Positions 57,190-64,000 of a stretch of DNA of 64,000 bases are shown here, piece by piece. The position numbers were made by a program, and so were the translations under genes. The first letter of the stretch is position 1. Every line of letters starts with the position of its first letter. Below the pieces are notes generated by a model that had not been told where the DNA came from, ran no database searches, and worked only from the letters and a program-made list of their open reading frames with translations. The DNA comes from an uncultured Ectothiorhodospiraceae bacterium (GTDB lineage Bacteria; Pseudomonadota; Gammaproteobacteria; UBA6429; Thiohalophilaceae), in assembly GCA_947258695.1 (NCBI GenBank), contig CAMYJG010000015.1, forward strand, positions 12,956 to 76,955, given 5' to 3'.

Positions 57190-58719
57190 ATGGTTAACTT
57201 ACGAAGAATATTAACATTTTGCTTATCCCCCAAAGCAAGGTTAAAAACCTTTCTTCATGGCCGCTTAGTACCCAAGCATTTCCCTATCGCTTATAAGCTT
57301 GCAGCAATCTTGACCCTACTGATTAGCAGTGGAATGATTCTTCTTGGTCTGGTTATAGTGAATAATCAAACCCATTTACTGCAAAAACAAATGAATCATT
57401 TTGCAGATACGGTTGTTGAACAATTGGCCGATAACTCGAAAGAACTGGTTATGTCTGATGATATTCTCAGTTTAATGGTTGTTATTAGCAATTTAGGTAC
57501 ACAAAGTAATATTTTAGGCGCCGTCATATATTCCGATGATGGACAAATACTTGCATCAACCGGCGTTATTCCGAGTGATGAAATTTATCGTCTATATAAT
57601 CGCTCAGAAGAAAGTAAGAATGATCACTTCCAGTTACAGTGGCGCACGAATGCTGCTGGCGGCCAAGCTGTCGGTGCCACTTCTTATATCTCTCCCATTA
57701 AGTTTCAAAATATCGTGGCGGGTCATGCCTTAGTGACATTTAGTACCGCTGAAATCGATCAAACTATTGCCGACATGATTAATGCCATTATAGCGGCAAC
57801 AATTATTATGATCTTACTCGGTGTGTTTGTCTCTCTGCACATGGGTCGACGTATCTCAAAACCATTGCACTCATTAATGGATGCCAGCCGTGAAATATCG
57901 AATGGTAACTATGAATATCAAATTAAAGAGCGTCGTAACGATGAGCTCGGAAATTTAACTACCGCACTCAACCGCATGGCAGATGGCCTGCTGGAAAAAA
58001 CACAAGTTGAAAATGCTTTCTCGCGCTATGTTTCAAAAAACATTGCAAAAGAAATTATGGGTAACCTCGAACATATTCAACTTGGCGGCCATCATGTTGA
58101 CGGCAGTGTTATTTTTGCAGACATCGTCGGTTTCACACAACTATCAGAAACTTATTCAGCCGACGAGATTGCCGGTGTATTAAACGATTATTTCTCTTAC
58201 ATCACCCTCGCTAGTAAAATGCACCAGGGTACCATTGATAAATACATGGGTGACTGTGCCATGATTGTATTCGGTGTGCCTGAAGAAGATAAGTTACATA
58301 AATTACATGCCGTTTATTGCGCCGTTATGATTCAAAAACTGGTTGAGCGCATCAATGCCATTCGTAGAAGCAATAACAAGTTAGCAGTATCTTTCCGTAT
58401 TGGTATTAACAGCGGTTCTATGCTCGCAGGCAACCTGGGTTCAACGGAGAGAATGCAATACACGGTTGTAGGTGAATCGGTAAACCTGGCATCACGCTTA
58501 CAACACATCGCAGAGAAAGACCAAATCATTATCAGCAGCGAGTTTTATAATGATCCGGATATAAAATGGCGATTAACTGCAGAAAAATATAAATCTATTT
58601 ATCTGAGGGGTATTACGGAAGAAGTATCGACCTATATTGTGAAAGATGTAATTGCCCTATACCAGGACAAGATAGATGAACAGATTGATGAGATTTTACG
58701 GATAAAACCTGCCGCATAA
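57190..58719 (+). CDS. Membrane class III nucleotide cyclase with HAMP
   Basis: 509 residues. Membrane helix (about 34-56), periplasmic sensor (57-195), second helix (about 198-220), HAMP (about 220-275) and a class III cyclase (about 300-490). Metal Asp in VIFADIVGFT and GDCAMIVFG; substrate Lys in TIDKYMGD; the partner position is Thr in QYTVVGESVNLASRL. The Lys/Thr pair is typical of class IIIb adenylate cyclases. GES replaces the usual GDT. Its stop overlaps the next start (TAATG at 58717), so the lipoprotein is made with it. Confidence 0.92.
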   Translation: MVNLRRILTFCLSPKARLKTFLHGRLVPKHFPIAYKLAAILTLLISSGMILLGLVIVNNQTHLLQKQMNHFADTVVEQLADNSKELVMSDDILSLMVVISNLGTQSNILGAVIYSDDGQILASTGVIPSDEIYRLYNRSEESKNDHFQLQWRTNAAGGQAVGATSYISPIKFQNIVAGHALVTFSTAEIDQTIADMINAIIAATIIMILLGVFVSLHMGRRISKPLHSLMDASREISNGNYEYQIKERRNDELGNLTTALNRMADGLLEKTQVENAFSRYVSKNIAKEIMGNLEHIQLGGHHVDGSVIFADIVGFTQLSETYSADEIAGVLNDYFSYITLASKMHQGTIDKYMGDCAMIVFGVPEEDKLHKLHAVYCAVMIQKLVERINAIRRSNNKLAVSFRIGINSGSMLAGNLGSTERMQYTVVGESVNLASRLQHIAEKDQIIISSEFYNDPDIKWRLTAEKYKSIYLRGITEEVSTYIVKDVIALYQDKIDEQIDEILRIKPAA

Positions 58720-59762
58720 TGAGACAAATACTTTTATTGCTCTTTATAGCCATCAGCATAAATGGCTGCTCACTTCTCTACTCCTACAGTGATAATTTAC
58801 CACAACGCCTTGATCAGTTAACTGCTGAAAAAAAATTCAACACCGCTTTAAATACCATTGAACACATCAAACCAAGTCATAAAGATTACCGCTTAATCCA
58901 GAAGAAAAAAATTGTTATTCGTAACAAAATGAATGTCTATGAAAAAAATGCAATAGACAAATCAAGCCAACTTGCCCGTCAAGGTTACTGGTTAAAAGCC
59001 TTGGAGACTCTTGATAACGTAGCCGAAAATATTCTCGAAACACAAAAAATAGATGCTCAGCGTAAAAAACTACTGGCAGAACGTAAAAAAGTCATTTCAG
59101 GTTATGAGAATGATATTTTATACAGCCAGGCTAAAAGCCTGGCCGATAAAATGGGTTTATATAAAAAGATAAAAAGAACCGTTAGCATGTCTGAGGATAA
59201 TCAACTGGATATCGATGAGTTTGATGAACTAAGACAAGAAACCAGCATGAGATTAGTACAACGCAGCGAACAACAGTTTAAAGCCGGTCGTTATGATAAT
59301 GCTCTCACTACCGTTAACCTTGCCCTAAAGCTCAAACCAGATGAAGACATCACGGAAGAACTGAATAATATAAAAGAGCGTGTTACCAAGGCAACCAAAC
59401 TAAAAAAATTATCTTACATAAAAAAAGTTAAAACCTTGCTCAGTAAATTATCACAAGGATACAGCCACGCAATTTTAAAAGAAACAAAAGAAACGATTAC
59501 CTGGTTGAATACCATAAAAGGTAATGAAAAAGAATATGTAAAACTGATTGCTAAACTCAAAAAGCATCTTGCTAATGGCGTAAAAGAAAATTTTCAGGCT
59601 GCAAGAAAATTATATAGCGAGGGAAAAACTCAGGAAGCATTAAGTATCTGGCTGGATCTTAAAGAATTAGATCCCAACCATCCTAAGCTTGACTCCCATA
59701 TTGAACGAGCTCAAAAAGTATTAATTAAGCTTAAAGAGTTGAGTAATAAACCAAAGAAATAA
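58719..59762 (+). CDS. Outer-membrane or periplasmic lipoprotein with TPR-like repeats
   Basis: 347 residues. Signal MRQILLLLFIAISINGC with lipobox ISINGC (Cys-17). The rest is helical with TPR-like patterns (RYDNALTTVNLALKLKPDED and GKTQEALSIWLDLKELDPNH). Lys-rich. Coupled by 1 base overlap to the cyclase gene. Perhaps a periplasmic partner of the cyclase sensor domain; this is inference. Confidence 0.85.
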   Translation: MRQILLLLFIAISINGCSLLYSYSDNLPQRLDQLTAEKKFNTALNTIEHIKPSHKDYRLIQKKKIVIRNKMNVYEKNAIDKSSQLARQGYWLKALETLDNVAENILETQKIDAQRKKLLAERKKVISGYENDILYSQAKSLADKMGLYKKIKRTVSMSEDNQLDIDEFDELRQETSMRLVQRSEQQFKAGRYDNALTTVNLALKLKPDEDITEELNNIKERVTKATKLKKLSYIKKVKTLLSKLSQGYSHAILKETKETITWLNTIKGNEKEYVKLIAKLKKHLANGVKENFQAARKLYSEGKTQEALSIWLDLKELDPNHPKLDSHIERAQKVLIKLKELSNKPKK

Positions 59763-59765
59763 TAT

Positions 59766-59779
59766 GTCCGTTTTCGGAC
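59766..59779 (+). terminator. Short hairpin after the lipoprotein gene
   Basis: GTCCG TTTT CGGAC starting 4 bases after the stop codon; a short stem without a U-run, so only a weak terminator candidate. It abuts copy C. Confidence 0.4.
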
Positions 59780-60055
59780 GGACAGCCGAGTTACTTTTTC
59801 TTGCTTGTCCAAGCAAAAGTAACCAAAAAGAAAGACACCCGAAGACTTGTTGGGATTTCCAATCCCAATACCCTCACATCAAAACAAAAACAGGCACTCG
59901 CCAACTCGGTCGTAGAACCACTACGTGTTTCATTCGACATGTCCTACACGCTCTGCGTTCTGGCCACGCCAAGTAAAGCTTCTGATCCGCTCAAACAAAG
60001 GCTCGCTATAATCCTGTTTTTATTTAGATGCTCGGCTGCGTCTAACGGGCATGGC
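59773..60055 (+). repeat. Three-hairpin dispersed element, copy C
   Basis: Hairpin 1: GTTACTTTT (59790-59798) with AAAAGTAAC (59815-59823), plus GCTT/AAGC. Hairpin 2: 59850-59857 with 59861-59868 (TTGGGATT/AATCCCAA, loop TCC). Stem 3: AAAAACAGG (59886-59894) with CCTGTTTTT (60013-60021). It has an extra ~50 bases inside the stem-3 loop compared with A and B. Open frames crossing it are products of the repeat. Confidence 0.85.
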
Positions 60056-60308
60056 CCAGCAGCAGATATTAGTGCGATGATGACTGCTAACGACCCATAG
60101 CTGCCAGTTAAATTTTACCCTTCCAAACACAACACACCTCTAAAGCAGACATTCATAACTTCTAAACTCTCTATATATCCTTGCACTTTGCAATCAGAGG
60201 TCCCGATTTGCTCTTTATGAATTTCAGACATAAACTATTGATAAATAAAAAATAAAGGGGCTATATAAGTGAATACTGTTAATGTTATACGGACCCCGTT
60301 AATCATCT
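60056..60308. other. Gap between copy C and the cassette array
   Basis: Here I find no gene, no integrase and no recognisable attI. It holds AT-rich DNA with a possible Shine-Dalgarno-like AAAGGGG at 60252 that leads to no ORF of useful length. Its right end is the G|TTAGGT junction of the first cassette. Confidence 0.5.
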
Positions 60309-60325
60309 GTTAGGTTTAAAAAAAA

Positions 60326-60667
60326 ATGAATGCGTTATCTATAGGGTTAGGAGCTTTAATATTACTTGGTTTACTTTTCAATCCTGCAGGAACACTTTTT
60401 ACTTATGATGCAGTGGCTTTTTTTATTTCAGGTGTAGCCTTAATTTCTGTTGGTGTTACATCAATAAAAAAGAAAAAACCGCAAATAATATATTACCTTG
60501 CATTAATTGCTTTATTTAGTTATTTCGTAGTTATATATAGCCGCTTTACTTACACATCACAAGAAGCATGGTGGCTGCCTTTAATTTTTGATGCTTGGTT
60601 TATCTTTCACATAGTTTTTATAATAGTGAAGAAAAAACCTAACAAGGCAATCAAAATGGACGTTTAA
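60326..60667 (+). CDS. Cassette 1: small multipass membrane protein
   Basis: 113 residues, about four membrane helices (2-20, 27-47, 53-72, 83-103). No family recognised. ATG follows the cassette head by 11 bases through a run of A, no Shine-Dalgarno. The C-terminus KKPNKAIKMDV is encoded by the 5' end of the attC, a common feature of cassette proteins. Confidence 0.75.
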   Translation: MNALSIGLGALILLGLLFNPAGTLFTYDAVAFFISGVALISVGVTSIKKKKPQIIYYLALIALFSYFVVIYSRFTYTSQEAWWLPLIFDAWFIFHIVFIIVKKKPNKAIKMDV

Positions 60668-60717
60668 AAGCGGTGCTCCGCACCACTTTAAATCGCCACT
60701 TATTTTAATCGTTAGCC
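60637..60717 (+). other. attC site 1
   Basis: R'' ACCTAAC (60637-60643) and R' GTTAGCC (60711-60717), with TTTAAA..GGTGC/GCACC..TTTAAA as central hairpin and L'/L'' TAATC-like arms. R'' is the perfect complement of the cassette 1 head GTTAGGT at 60309. Confidence 0.85.
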
Positions 60718-60737
60718 GCTAAAAAAGGAGTCATACT

Positions 60738-61130
60738 GTGATTGAACCAAAAAGCTCTTTTCCTGTGTTTACCGTTAAAGACCTCGATGAAGCGAAATCC
60801 TTCGTTGTCTTTTCGGGTGATTGGTACATTCACTTGGTTTCGAAGTCAGGCATTCAGGTAGGATTTCTGTTGCCAGATCAACCCACCCAACCACCAATAT
60901 TTCAAAAACCATACCTTGGTGATGGCGTTATTTTCAGCTTGGAAGTGGAAGACGCAGATACCGCTTACGCAGCAGCACAATTGAAATCGCTCAACATCGT
61001 GCTTGAGTTACGGTCCGAGGACTGGGGGCAGCGGCACTTCTGTATCCAAGATCCGAATGGGATTTATTTGGATATTGTTCAGTCTTTTGAGCCAACTGAA
61101 GAATATCAGAGTGATTATGTCTCAGAATAA
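60738..61130 (+). CDS. Cassette 2a: VOC (glyoxalase/bleomycin-resistance fold) protein
   Basis: 130 residues, GTG start with AAGGAG spaced 7 bases. FPVFTVKDLDEAKSFV, VGFLLPDQPTQ and the end EDWGQRHFCIQDPNGIYLDI follow the VOC pattern; the last carries the usual metal Glu/His region. Substrate unknown. Overlaps the next ORF by 14 bases. Confidence 0.85.
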   Translation: MIEPKSSFPVFTVKDLDEAKSFVVFSGDWYIHLVSKSGIQVGFLLPDQPTQPPIFQKPYLGDGVIFSLEVEDADTAYAAAQLKSLNIVLELRSEDWGQRHFCIQDPNGIYLDIVQSFEPTEEYQSDYVSE

Positions 61131-61380
61131 AAACCTCACAGATCTTAGAAATATCGGCAAGAAGATTTCCGGCCGACTCAATGAAGTTGGGATCTTTTCC
61201 GAAGATGACTTAAGACGAGTTGGTGCTGTTGGCGCACATCGCATGATCAAGGAGAGACATCCGGATGAAACATTGCCGGTCTGTTTTTACCTGTATTCAT
61301 TTGAAGGAGCTTTGACTGACAAACATTGGGATGAAATCGGTGAGCGTAGAAAACAGCAGCTTATGGCACAAATCGGCTAA
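61117..61380 (+). CDS. Cassette 2b: TfoX C-terminal domain protein
   Basis: 87 residues from ATG 61117 within the end of the VOC gene. LTDLRNIGKKISGRLNEVGI and GAHRMIKERHP match the helix-hairpin-helix-like TfoX_C domain (competence-regulator C-terminus) as a stand-alone protein. Its TAA stop is within the R'' box of attC 2. Bicistronic cassettes are uncommon, and coupling by overlap suggests the two travelled together for some time. Confidence 0.85.
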   Translation: MSQNKNLTDLRNIGKKISGRLNEVGIFSEDDLRRVGAVGAHRMIKERHPDETLPVCFYLYSFEGALTDKHWDEIGERRKQQLMAQIG

Positions 61381-61446
61381 CAAGGCGCTTGCTCGGACGC
61401 AAACTACGCGGCGCTTCGTTTGCGCCCCACAACTATAACGTTATGT
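61375..61446 (+). other. attC site 2
   Basis: R'' GGCTAAC (61375-61381), R' GTTATGT (61440-61446), central hairpin GACGCAAAC/GTTTGCGCC. R'' is the perfect complement of the cassette 2 head GTTAGCC at 60711. Confidence 0.88.
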
Positions 61447-61488
61447 TTGTAAAACCAAACCCGTTAAGTATTAATTAGGAGAGCAATA

Positions 61489-61998
61489 ATGGAAACTAAT
61501 GCTTTACCAAAATACGATATGAGTGACAACCCGACAAACTGTTGTCCAAGATTTAATCCGGAAGGATGGGATGAACAGGAACTTCATTTTAAGGACAAGC
61601 TGTTCGTCAAAGCTAAAACTAGAAGTATTTTCCATATTCCTATCAATATGGGCTCTGTTTTTCCAAAGACATTTGCTGCTATTGAAAAGGTAAATGCAAG
61701 AGATGATAACGATTTTATTGTCTTGTCTTATGAGCCGTCATCATGGACTGGAGAACATTATTTTTCAGTAAATAAAGATGTTCCTGATGAGGAAATGGTT
61801 CATATGACGGGAAATTATTTGACAAAGGTGTTTGAAGGGCCATATAAAAATGCACCTAAATGGGAAAAAGAAATGAAGGAGTTTGTAAAAAATAAAGGAA
61901 AACATGTAAAGAAAACATATTTTTTCTACACAACGTGTCCGAAGTGCGCCAAGTTTTATGGTAAAAATTATATGGTAACGGTGTCTGAGATTGAATAA
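61489..61998 (+). CDS. Cassette 3: protein with CPKC motif, GyrI-like pattern
   Basis: 169 residues with AGGAGAG upstream. DNPTNCCPRFNPEGWDEQEL, FHIPINMGSVF, VFEGPYKNAPKW and YFFYTTCPKCAKFYGK are conserved in a widespread, unnamed family I have seen annotated as hydrolase; the GPYKNAP segment is reminiscent of GyrI-like small-molecule binding domains. Real function unknown. Cys pairs CC and CPKC suggest a metal site. Confidence 0.82.
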   Translation: METNALPKYDMSDNPTNCCPRFNPEGWDEQELHFKDKLFVKAKTRSIFHIPINMGSVFPKTFAAIEKVNARDDNDFIVLSYEPSSWTGEHYFSVNKDVPDEEMVHMTGNYLTKVFEGPYKNAPKWEKEMKEFVKNKGKHVKKTYFFYTTCPKCAKFYGKNYMVTVSEIE

Positions 61999-62001
61999 AA
62001 T

Positions 62002-62067
62002 TAAGCATAACAAATCGTTCAAAAATGACCGCCAAAAAGCGGCGGCCTTTTAACTCAGCGATATGTA
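62002..62067 (+). other. attC site 3 (degenerate R')
   Basis: R'' GCATAAC (about 62004-62010), central stem GACCGCC/GGCGGCC, and R' GATATGT where GTTATGT is expected (head of cassette 3: GTTATGT). The single T-to-A in the core triplet may stop recombination. Confidence 0.75.
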
Positions 62068-62566
62068 TCATATAAATAATCCATTCATTATTGATGTTGA
62101 GGCTTCTGGATTTGGAAGTAAGAGTTACCCTATTGAAATTGGTGTTGCATTGAATGATGGGCAGAAGTTCTGTAGTTTAATCTCGCCAGAACCAGATTGG
62201 ACTTATTGGGATAATAAAGCAGAGAAGATACATAATTTGTCTCGTGACATACTAAACGTTTATGGCAAACCAGTACATGAAGTAGTTGATCAACTAAACG
62301 CAACATTGGCTGGGATGACACTTTTTTCAGATGGTTGGGTAGTAGACAAACCATGGCTTACAACTTTGTTTCATGCTGCAGGGAGGCCGATGAAATTTAG
62401 TGTCAGTCCACTGGAAATGATACTTACAGAAAAGCAAATGTCGATATGGCATGAAACAAAAGACCAGATAACCAAGCAAGTCAATCTAACGCGACACCGA
62501 GCAAGTAATGATGCCTTGATTATACAAATGACGTACAACCAAACATTAAAAGCAACTAATGATTAA
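62063..62566 (+). CDS. Cassette 4: DnaQ-like 3'-5' exonuclease
   Basis: 167 residues. Exo I DVEASGFGS (Asp-11, Glu-13), Exo II DGWVVDKPWLTTLFHA and Exo III HRASNDALI (DEDDh His/Asp). The ATG is inside the R' region of attC 3, with no Shine-Dalgarno. Cassette-borne exonucleases of this type occur in other integrons; role unknown. No attC after it. Confidence 0.85.
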   Translation: MYHINNPFIIDVEASGFGSKSYPIEIGVALNDGQKFCSLISPEPDWTYWDNKAEKIHNLSRDILNVYGKPVHEVVDQLNATLAGMTLFSDGWVVDKPWLTTLFHAAGRPMKFSVSPLEMILTEKQMSIWHETKDQITKQVNLTRHRASNDALIIQMTYNQTLKATND

Positions 62567-62581
62567 TTGAGAAATAAAGAA

Positions 62582-64000
62582 TCACTCTTCTTTTCTTAAA
62601 ACCTCAACCGCTCGAAGCGAAGGTGGTAACTTCTTACCACGTTGGCCACGTTCACCTTCATACGGTTCCATGTCATCTGAGTTTAATACTTTAGTTGTCT
62701 TAACAGAACGTATAAACAAATTATCATCTTCACTAATAACCGTCACTGCAGAAGCAAATTCTTCACCGGTTTTCAGCTTGGCTGAAGGTATATTCATAAT
62801 CTTAATGCCTTTGCCTTTTGGCATTTGTGGCAATTCAGATATGTGATGGAACAGTAGATGACCATCGTTTGATGTCATGGCAACCCAATCGGTTTCCATA
62901 TCACTCACCGGTACCGGTGGTAACATTTTTCCACCGATTGGCACTTTAACAATGCCTTTACCTTTTTTGTTCTTGGTAATGAAATCTTCCATTTTTCCGA
63001 TAAAGCCATAACCATGGCTTGTTGCTAATAAGAACAACTGCTCATTAGAACCTGTCATCACACCACAGAAGGTAGCACCAGGTGGTGCATTTAAACGGCC
63101 TGTTAACGGCTCACCCAGTCCACGTGCCGAGGGTAAGGTATGAATCGGTAGCGCATAAGTCCGACCGGTAGAGTCGATTGCAATGACTTGCTCATTTGTT
63201 TTACTTCTTGTGTAAGACAGTAGCCTATCACCCGCCTTAAATGGCATGGTCTCAGGATCTATCTCATGACCTTTAGCTGCACGGATAAAGCCATTTTCAG
63301 ACAACACAACCGTGACAGGATCAGAAGCAATCAAATCTGTTTCGGCCATTGCTTGTGCAACTTCACGTTCTTTAATTGGAGAACGACGTACATCACCATG
63401 TTCAACTGCAATTTCTTCTAATTCTTTACGAATCAATGTTTTCATTCGAGTTTTAGAACCAAGAATCGCTTCAATTTCATCTCGCTCTTTGGCCAGTTCT
63501 TTTTTCTCTTTTTTCATCGTCATTTCTTCTAACTTAGCTAAATGACGCAGCTTTAATTCAAGAATCGCTTCTGCCTGGATTTCTGAAAGCTTAAAGCGCC
63601 TCATTAATACCGGCTTAGGTTTATCATTCTCACGAATAATTTTTATCACTTCATCGATATTTAAATACGCTTTAATTAAACCATCAAGAATATGTAAACG
63701 GCTTAATATTTTCTCTAAACGGAAGTTTAAACGTTTGGTAACGATGTCAGTTCTAAACTGTAACCACTCAGTTAATATTGTATTTAAATCTTTTACACCC
63801 GGGCGATCATTTAAACCAATCATGTTCATATTAACGCGATAGGTTTTTTCAAGATCAGTGGTTGCAAATAGATGTGTCATCAATTCATCAACATTAGTAT
63901 CTTTTGATTTAGGCACAATCACTAAACGTGTTGGATTTTCATGATCGGATTCATCACGTAAATCAACCACTAACGGTAATTTCTTGGCATTCATTTGCGC
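62582..64000 (-). CDS. parC: DNA topoisomerase IV subunit A (C-terminal part)
   Basis: About 473 residues are visible; the gene runs beyond the right edge. KKLPLVVDLRDESDHENPTR, HLFATTDLEKTYRVNMNMIG, LKLRHLAKLEEMTMKKEKKE, SARGLGEPLTG and the five-blade beta-propeller with AMTSNDGHLLFHHISELPQM match ParC. GyrA is excluded by the absence of the GyrA box (QRRGGKG). Decatenates chromosomes. Its stop is 15 bases from the cassette array; that boundary is probably the array insertion edge. Confidence 0.97.
   Translation of the reverse strand, partial: AQMNAKKLPLVVDLRDESDHENPTRLVIVPKSKDTNVDELMTHLFATTDLEKTYRVNMNMIGLNDRPGVKDLNTILTEWLQFRTDIVTKRLNFRLEKILSRLHILDGLIKAYLNIDEVIKIIRENDKPKPVLMRRFKLSEIQAEAILELKLRHLAKLEEMTMKKEKKELAKERDEIEAILGSKTRMKTLIRKELEEIAVEHGDVRRSPIKEREVAQAMAETDLIASDPVTVVLSENGFIRAAKGHEIDPETMPFKAGDRLLSYTRSKTNEQVIAIDSTGRTYALPIHTLPSARGLGEPLTGRLNAPPGATFCGVMTGSNEQLFLLATSHGYGFIGKMEDFITKNKKGKGIVKVPIGGKMLPPVPVSDMETDWVAMTSNDGHLLFHHISELPQMPKGKGIKIMNIPSAKLKTGEEFASAVTVISEDDNLFIRSVKTTKVLNSDDMEPYEGERGQRGKKLPPSLRAVEVLRKEE

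Follow-up and report, generated by a model that had tools for sequence, protein, structure and literature searches.

Layout of the locus

The window analysed here is a stretch of 64,000 nucleotides (G000:C15:12956-76955) from the draft MAG G000 (3.2 Mb, 164 contigs, 95% complete), which derives from an uncultured Ectothiorhodospiraceae bacterium. A TPR lipoprotein-like gene and parC enclose, in this order, a dispersed repeat, a leader, an attI site, three gene cassettes and one more ORF; features are on the forward strand unless stated otherwise. The left chromosomal flank is the TPR-repeat lipoprotein-like ORF (58719-59762), which gives a weak Pfam TPR match and is syntenic in the congeners G003 and G007. 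The right flank is the 3′ part of parC (62582-64000, reverse strand); nearly all relatives have homologues of this topoisomerase IV subunit A. The array lies inside a 119.7-kb contig, with flanks that are syntenic in both of these congeners. Comparison of the parC flanks, proposed as a check in a preliminary description of this DNA, showed an empty site in G007, where the homologous flanking genes are only 64 bp apart, and a different insert with unrelated ORFs at the same spot in G003. The spot therefore tolerates insertions, and at least two congeners lack the array.

The dispersed repeat (59764-60053) lies between the left flank and the leader. Three more copies, 77-84% identical, lie within the different insert of G003 at the parC spot. 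The element measures about 250-300 bp and occurs in both orientations in a congener (L044 6883-7142, 8407-8619 and 9472-9692), beside unrelated inserts; it is a possible recombination substrate. An Rfam scan of the 64-kb window gave no match.

attC sites and cassette boundaries

We searched for attC sites with a covariance model, R2, whose training set was the ends of 26 attC in relatives' integron arrays and included no site of the window or of G000. R2 has an N-filled centre; an earlier model, R1, was dropped because it was unable to span the variable centre of attC. With filters off, the best R2 match in the 64-kb window was attC1 (60637-60717; 33.8 bits, E 5.6e-5), whose bottom strand also folds far better than shuffled sequences (z -3.26). 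attC2 (61375-61446) ranked second (17.5 bits, E 0.16) and attC3 (62005-62066) fourth (13.3 bits, E 1.2), and neither stands out from shuffles in its fold (z -0.96 and -1.75). Since a chance-looking match of 43 nt ranked third, attC3 is not significant alone; its R′ box is degenerate, reading GATATGT instead of GTTRRRY. For comparison, R2 scored known attC of relatives at 25-44 bits, most of these being training sites, and an attC of the resident integron, outside the training set, at 30.2 bits. Failure of attC models to score any site had been named beforehand as evidence against an array; with our own model the sites do score, and attC1 scores best in the window.

The cassette boundaries are supported by base pairing between the two ends of each cassette. 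The heads GTTAGGT (60309), GTTAGCC (60711) and GTTATGT (61440) are complementary to the R′′ boxes ACCTAAC (60637), GGCTAAC (61375) and GCATAAC (62005) at 7/7, 7/7 and 6/7 positions, as first reported, and where heads 2 and 3 depart from the consensus, the R′′ of the same cassette carries the compensating base. Among unrelated head/R′′ pairs drawn from the 26 known attC of relatives, 7/7 occurs in 8.8% and at least 6/7 in 33%, and with this null the joint chance of the pairing in three cassettes is about 0.003. Across the window, GTTA/TAAC pairs at cassette spacing reach 7/7 in 2%.

The closest relative of attC2 lies in a class-B integron of another genus, G015: over 66 nt it is 88% identical to an attC (L148) in an intI-linked array. 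A further match, at 84%, is a site on a Thiolapillus brandeum plasmid. The earlier reading that the attC sites have different origins holds. The plasmid, pTBH13 (NZ_AP012275.1, L245; 13.5 kb), shows ten attC matches and no annotated integrase, and is largely a cassette array. A genome-wide count of attC by pattern in G000 showed no enrichment over a reversed-pattern control (55/47 vs 79/88). Small contigs or contig ends rich in attC were seen in G000 (C128, C106, C19 and C63; L214-L217), and they are probably pieces of two resident arrays broken by the assembly.

Cassette genes and the terminal ORF

Cassette 1 (60310-60711) encodes a 113-aa membrane protein (60326-60667), to which family searches, Pfam included, assigned no family. 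Cassette 2 (60712-61440) holds two genes recognized by Pfam, a VOC/glyoxalase-like ORF (60738-61130) and a TfoX_C ORF (61117-61380). The VOC protein is without eight residues that are present in all three homologues. The same two-gene cassette occurs in G020:C57 with matched ends (head GTTAGCT, R′′ AGCTAAC), and in G022 and G020:C71 the gene pair is followed by weak attC-like matches. Cassette 3 (61441-62060) encodes a PF20603 (Bact_hydrolase) protein (61489-61998; Pfam E 1e-74), whose relatives at 70-87% identity occur in Gammaproteobacteria, Campylobacterota and further phyla. The cassette is 83% identical to a MAG locus (L186), and the similarity extends from its head (61440) to R′′ (62010). 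An attC search around the PF20603 homologues returned at most one weak site.

The last ORF before parC (ORF4, 62063-62566) is DEDDh exonuclease-like (PADLOC DEDDh 1.8e-8; weak Pfam Rv2179c-like match). It had been counted as a fourth cassette, which we reject: no attC-like sequence follows it, and attC are likewise missing beside the family's homologues. The array is genuine, with three cassettes at 60310-62060. A fixed order of these ORFs in relatives, the other finding named beforehand as evidence against an array, was not found.

An attI site and leader to the left of cassette 1

We use the labels A, B and C for integron classes, coined in this analysis. Class-B attI consist of the inverted repeat TATACGGACC..GGTCCGTATA and, after it, (A)TCANCTG^TTA. 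Directly left of cassette 1, the window has a site of this kind (60285-60315), reading TTATACGGACCCCGTTAATCATCTG^TTAGGT with the crossover at 60309/60310. It shows the CGG..CCG palindrome and TAATCA(N)CTG^TTA, with a shortened right palindrome arm. With a leave-one-out PWM that excluded the window copy, this site ranked first of 127,956 positions at 23.5 bits, a score reached by none of 60 Markov-shuffled maxima. The training sites scored 32-36 bits; one alignment gap in two of them was filled with C. The left flank was rejected as an attI of class A, the class of the resident integrons, at rank 26 of 640 GTTA sites. Judged by its sequence architecture, it is the attI of a separate class, B.

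The retained intI-side leader spans 60180-60308, with an approximate start, and begins with the palindrome TTGCACTTTGCAA (60181-60193; no strand assigned). Aligned with intI-bearing class-B integrons, it shares TTGCANNNTGCAA, the TGTCNCGATTTGC box and attI at similar spacing, and the window has a single TTGCANNNTGCAA. The TTGCANNNTGCAA palindrome is conserved near the intI start in class-B leaders (L231, L235, L238) as at 60181 of the window, and is a possible operator for a regulator of class-B intI. A sigma-70 consensus search of the leader for the cassette promoter Pc, covering promoters of the sigma-70 type, gave no match.

Integron integrases in G000 and in its relatives

No IntI match was found on the contig of the window, and tblastn of class-B IntI against positions 56-64 kb of the window revealed no remnant. 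The intI coding region expected to the left of about 60140 is absent, and the dispersed repeat lies there instead. "Integrase-less", as the array was originally called, describes the locus and not the genome: G000 holds two intact integron integrases above the TIGR02249 cut-off on other contigs (C59 and C54). Each is about 470 aa long and is encoded at a contig end with an attI of its own. Both belong to clade A, the only clade represented in G000, which is found in most of the family. Their attI ends in ...CTAAATCACTG^TTA or similar and is unlike that of the window. These resident integrases (L038 7948-9372, L039 236-1645) carry an extra N-terminal region of about 150 aa with no Pfam match, a form seen in most genera of the family. 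On another contig (G000:C2:145329-145499, L007) we noted an IntI-like fragment of 80 aa with stop codons, a possible integrase pseudogene.

The class-B IntI of G015, G021 and G050, from three other genera of the family, form a clade with 100/100 support. The eight genomes of the genus yielded no class-B IntI; a partial IntI in G004 falls outside all three clades. A class-B intI could sit in sequence missing from the draft MAG, given its completeness and number of contigs.

Class-B platforms across the family

A search of the genus with 60050-60330 found one place each in G001, G003 and G006, and all three matches extend to ...TAATCAWCTGTTAG, where a cassette begins. When the family was searched with the pattern, allowing at most two mismatches, the four exact copies were returned together with one further copy in G011 and another in G015:C33, with a single match for the reversed control; a seventh pattern match, in G043, looks like chance. 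The copy in G015:C33 belongs, as attI, to an IntI whose gene lies at a distance of about 200 bp, and the same architecture lies directly beside class-B IntI in G015:C33, G021:C8 and G050:C53.

Within the genus, attI-B with cassettes and no neighbouring intI is present in four of eight genomes: G003, G006, G011 and G001, where the status of intI is uncertain, as the contig begins too close to attI-B to exclude it. The copy in G011 adjoins a glycogen phosphorylase-like gene. That in G006 is followed by seven attC. The G006 platform (G006:C98, L209 3548-8965) lies directly behind a BolA-like gene, at a locus that also has a LonB-like gene. No orphan platform was found in viral contigs (searched with attI-B), plasmids (60050-62100) or phages (59770-60330).

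A platform that probably lost its integrase gene

We consider it likely that the locus is an integron platform that lost intI and kept its class-B attI, the leader between intI and attI, and three cassettes. The rank of the attI, the retained leader boxes, the lack of any intI remnant and the different clade of the genome's own IntI together point to a platform without intI. The head of the array has the attI of a complete integron, of class-B architecture, and lacks both an adjacent intI and a class-B IntI in cis. On the other side stand the weak covariance scores of attC2 and attC3, the unremarkable fold of attC2, the draft state of the MAG, and the recurrence of an intI-less platform at different chromosomal places in several species, for which a single local loss is insufficient. 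Cassettes would have arrived one at a time as circles, each recombining through its attC with attI at CTG^TTA, with the most recent arrival bordering attI; a class-B IntI would have catalysed these insertions before it was lost. The platform occupies the intergenic space downstream of parC, which in a congener is empty. The array is now probably mostly static, to judge from the short attI palindrome, the broken last R′ box and the deletion in the VOC gene.

Another possibility, less probable though far from negligible, is that the platform is non-autonomous and active in trans, with attI-B platforms that persist, receive cassettes through integrases of other classes encoded elsewhere in the cell, and perhaps move as units. 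Several observations would fit. An intact attI-B with cassettes and no adjacent class-B IntI lies at different loci in the window, G003, G006 and G011, and probably in G001. The attI core is conserved between the window and G001 (39/43) beyond the whole leader alignment (73%) and the parC match (83%). The leader sequence that replaces intI is common to the window, G006 and G001. G006 has first cassettes both at the orphan attI-B (C98) and at a class-C attI (C38), and the attC of these two are 97% identical; other sites match at 92-96%. However, the attCs of the window are not close to those of the resident integrons of G000, G003 has an orphan platform yet no IntI was found there, and the sharing of cassettes could predate the loss of intI. 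A more general claim, which we consider rather improbable, is that integrons have non-autonomous platforms, consisting of attI and leader without intI, which would last at several chromosomal sites throughout a genus and gain cassettes in trans via integrases of other classes.

For the platform of the window we clearly favour a relic over a satellite, based on the short attI palindrome, the broken last R′ box, the gene deletion and attCs unlike those of the resident arrays. Across the genus, such platforms may serve as satellites.

Integrases can also place cassettes off target, at attG sites, for which the target consensus is GWT. Our initial working hypothesis was that an IntI had placed cassettes of a resident integron at a chance genomic GWT site, and two IntI in G000 and a last R′ box that reads GAT, compatible with a GWT target, would agree with it. 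This is now very improbable and largely refuted by the attI at the left border: the left flank is no unrelated DNA but a conserved attI with its leader, which lies beside IntI in other genera and before arrays in congeners. Chance resemblance or an assembly artefact, for which one could cite the draft state of the MAG and the weak scores of two of the three attC, is hardly credible for an array inside a 119.7-kb contig with syntenic flanks in two congeners, where the attI, the head/R′′ pairing, the score of attC1 and homologous cassettes with the same ends agree independently.

Discussion

Arrays of two or more attC with their cassettes and no intI nearby are known as CALIN and are common in integron-bearing genomes (PMC9024848, PMC8618304, PMC12444791). 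The locus next to parC is a CALIN by definition, with at least two attC (attC1 strong, attC2 supported, attC3 weak), complementary heads and R′′ boxes and no adjacent intI, but one that keeps its attI. It was described from the start as an integron cassette array beside parC without a neighbouring integrase; this description holds, and the attI with the intI-side leader makes the locus more than a loose group of attC. Proposed origins of CALIN are off-target insertion, loss of intI or degradation of an integron, and rearrangement (PMC8618304; also PMC9024848, PMC12444791). Unlike other CALIN, this one has an attI that can still be recognised, together with the leader on the intI side, and both are of a class with no integrase found in G000 or in our sample of the genus.

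The integron at ilvD in Xanthomonas has repeatedly lost intI and retained its cassettes (PMC12444791). In these sedentary chromosomal integrons, where intI is inactivated or deleted, as probably in the window, cassettes outlast the integrase gene. In Xanthomonas, however, intI is consistently downstream of ilvD, though CALINs also occur elsewhere, whereas here intI-less attI-B lie at different loci across species, in a host that also carries integrons of other classes. With cassettes at attG the window shares a position outside the resident integron of an IntI-bearing genome, but the left border of the array is an attI and not a genomic GWT site. The class-B integron of G015:C33, from the same family, resembles the locus in its attI architecture TATACGG..CCGTATAATCAACTG^TTA, the leader elements and a near-identical attC2; it combines intI, attI and array, whereas the platform of the window has no intI beside its attI. 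Platforms filled in trans, if they exist, would resemble short non-autonomous transposons that depend on full-length ones.

The new element is that, in a genus with other integron classes in use, several loci have an attI that can be read and assigned to a class, while the integrase of this class is missing. In the literature outside subscription journals we found no description of such multi-locus attI platforms missing the integrase of their own class. Surveys find arrays without an integrase roughly as often as complete integrons (PMC9024848). Whether such an array is a relic, an off-target insertion or a satellite can usually not be told, because nothing identifies its borders. The border of this array is legible: it is a class-specific attI, which has intI-bearing counterparts in sister genera and recurs in congeners as orphan copies, and the question of relic versus satellite therefore becomes directly testable. 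The family offers a case of several integron classes sharing one cassette pool.
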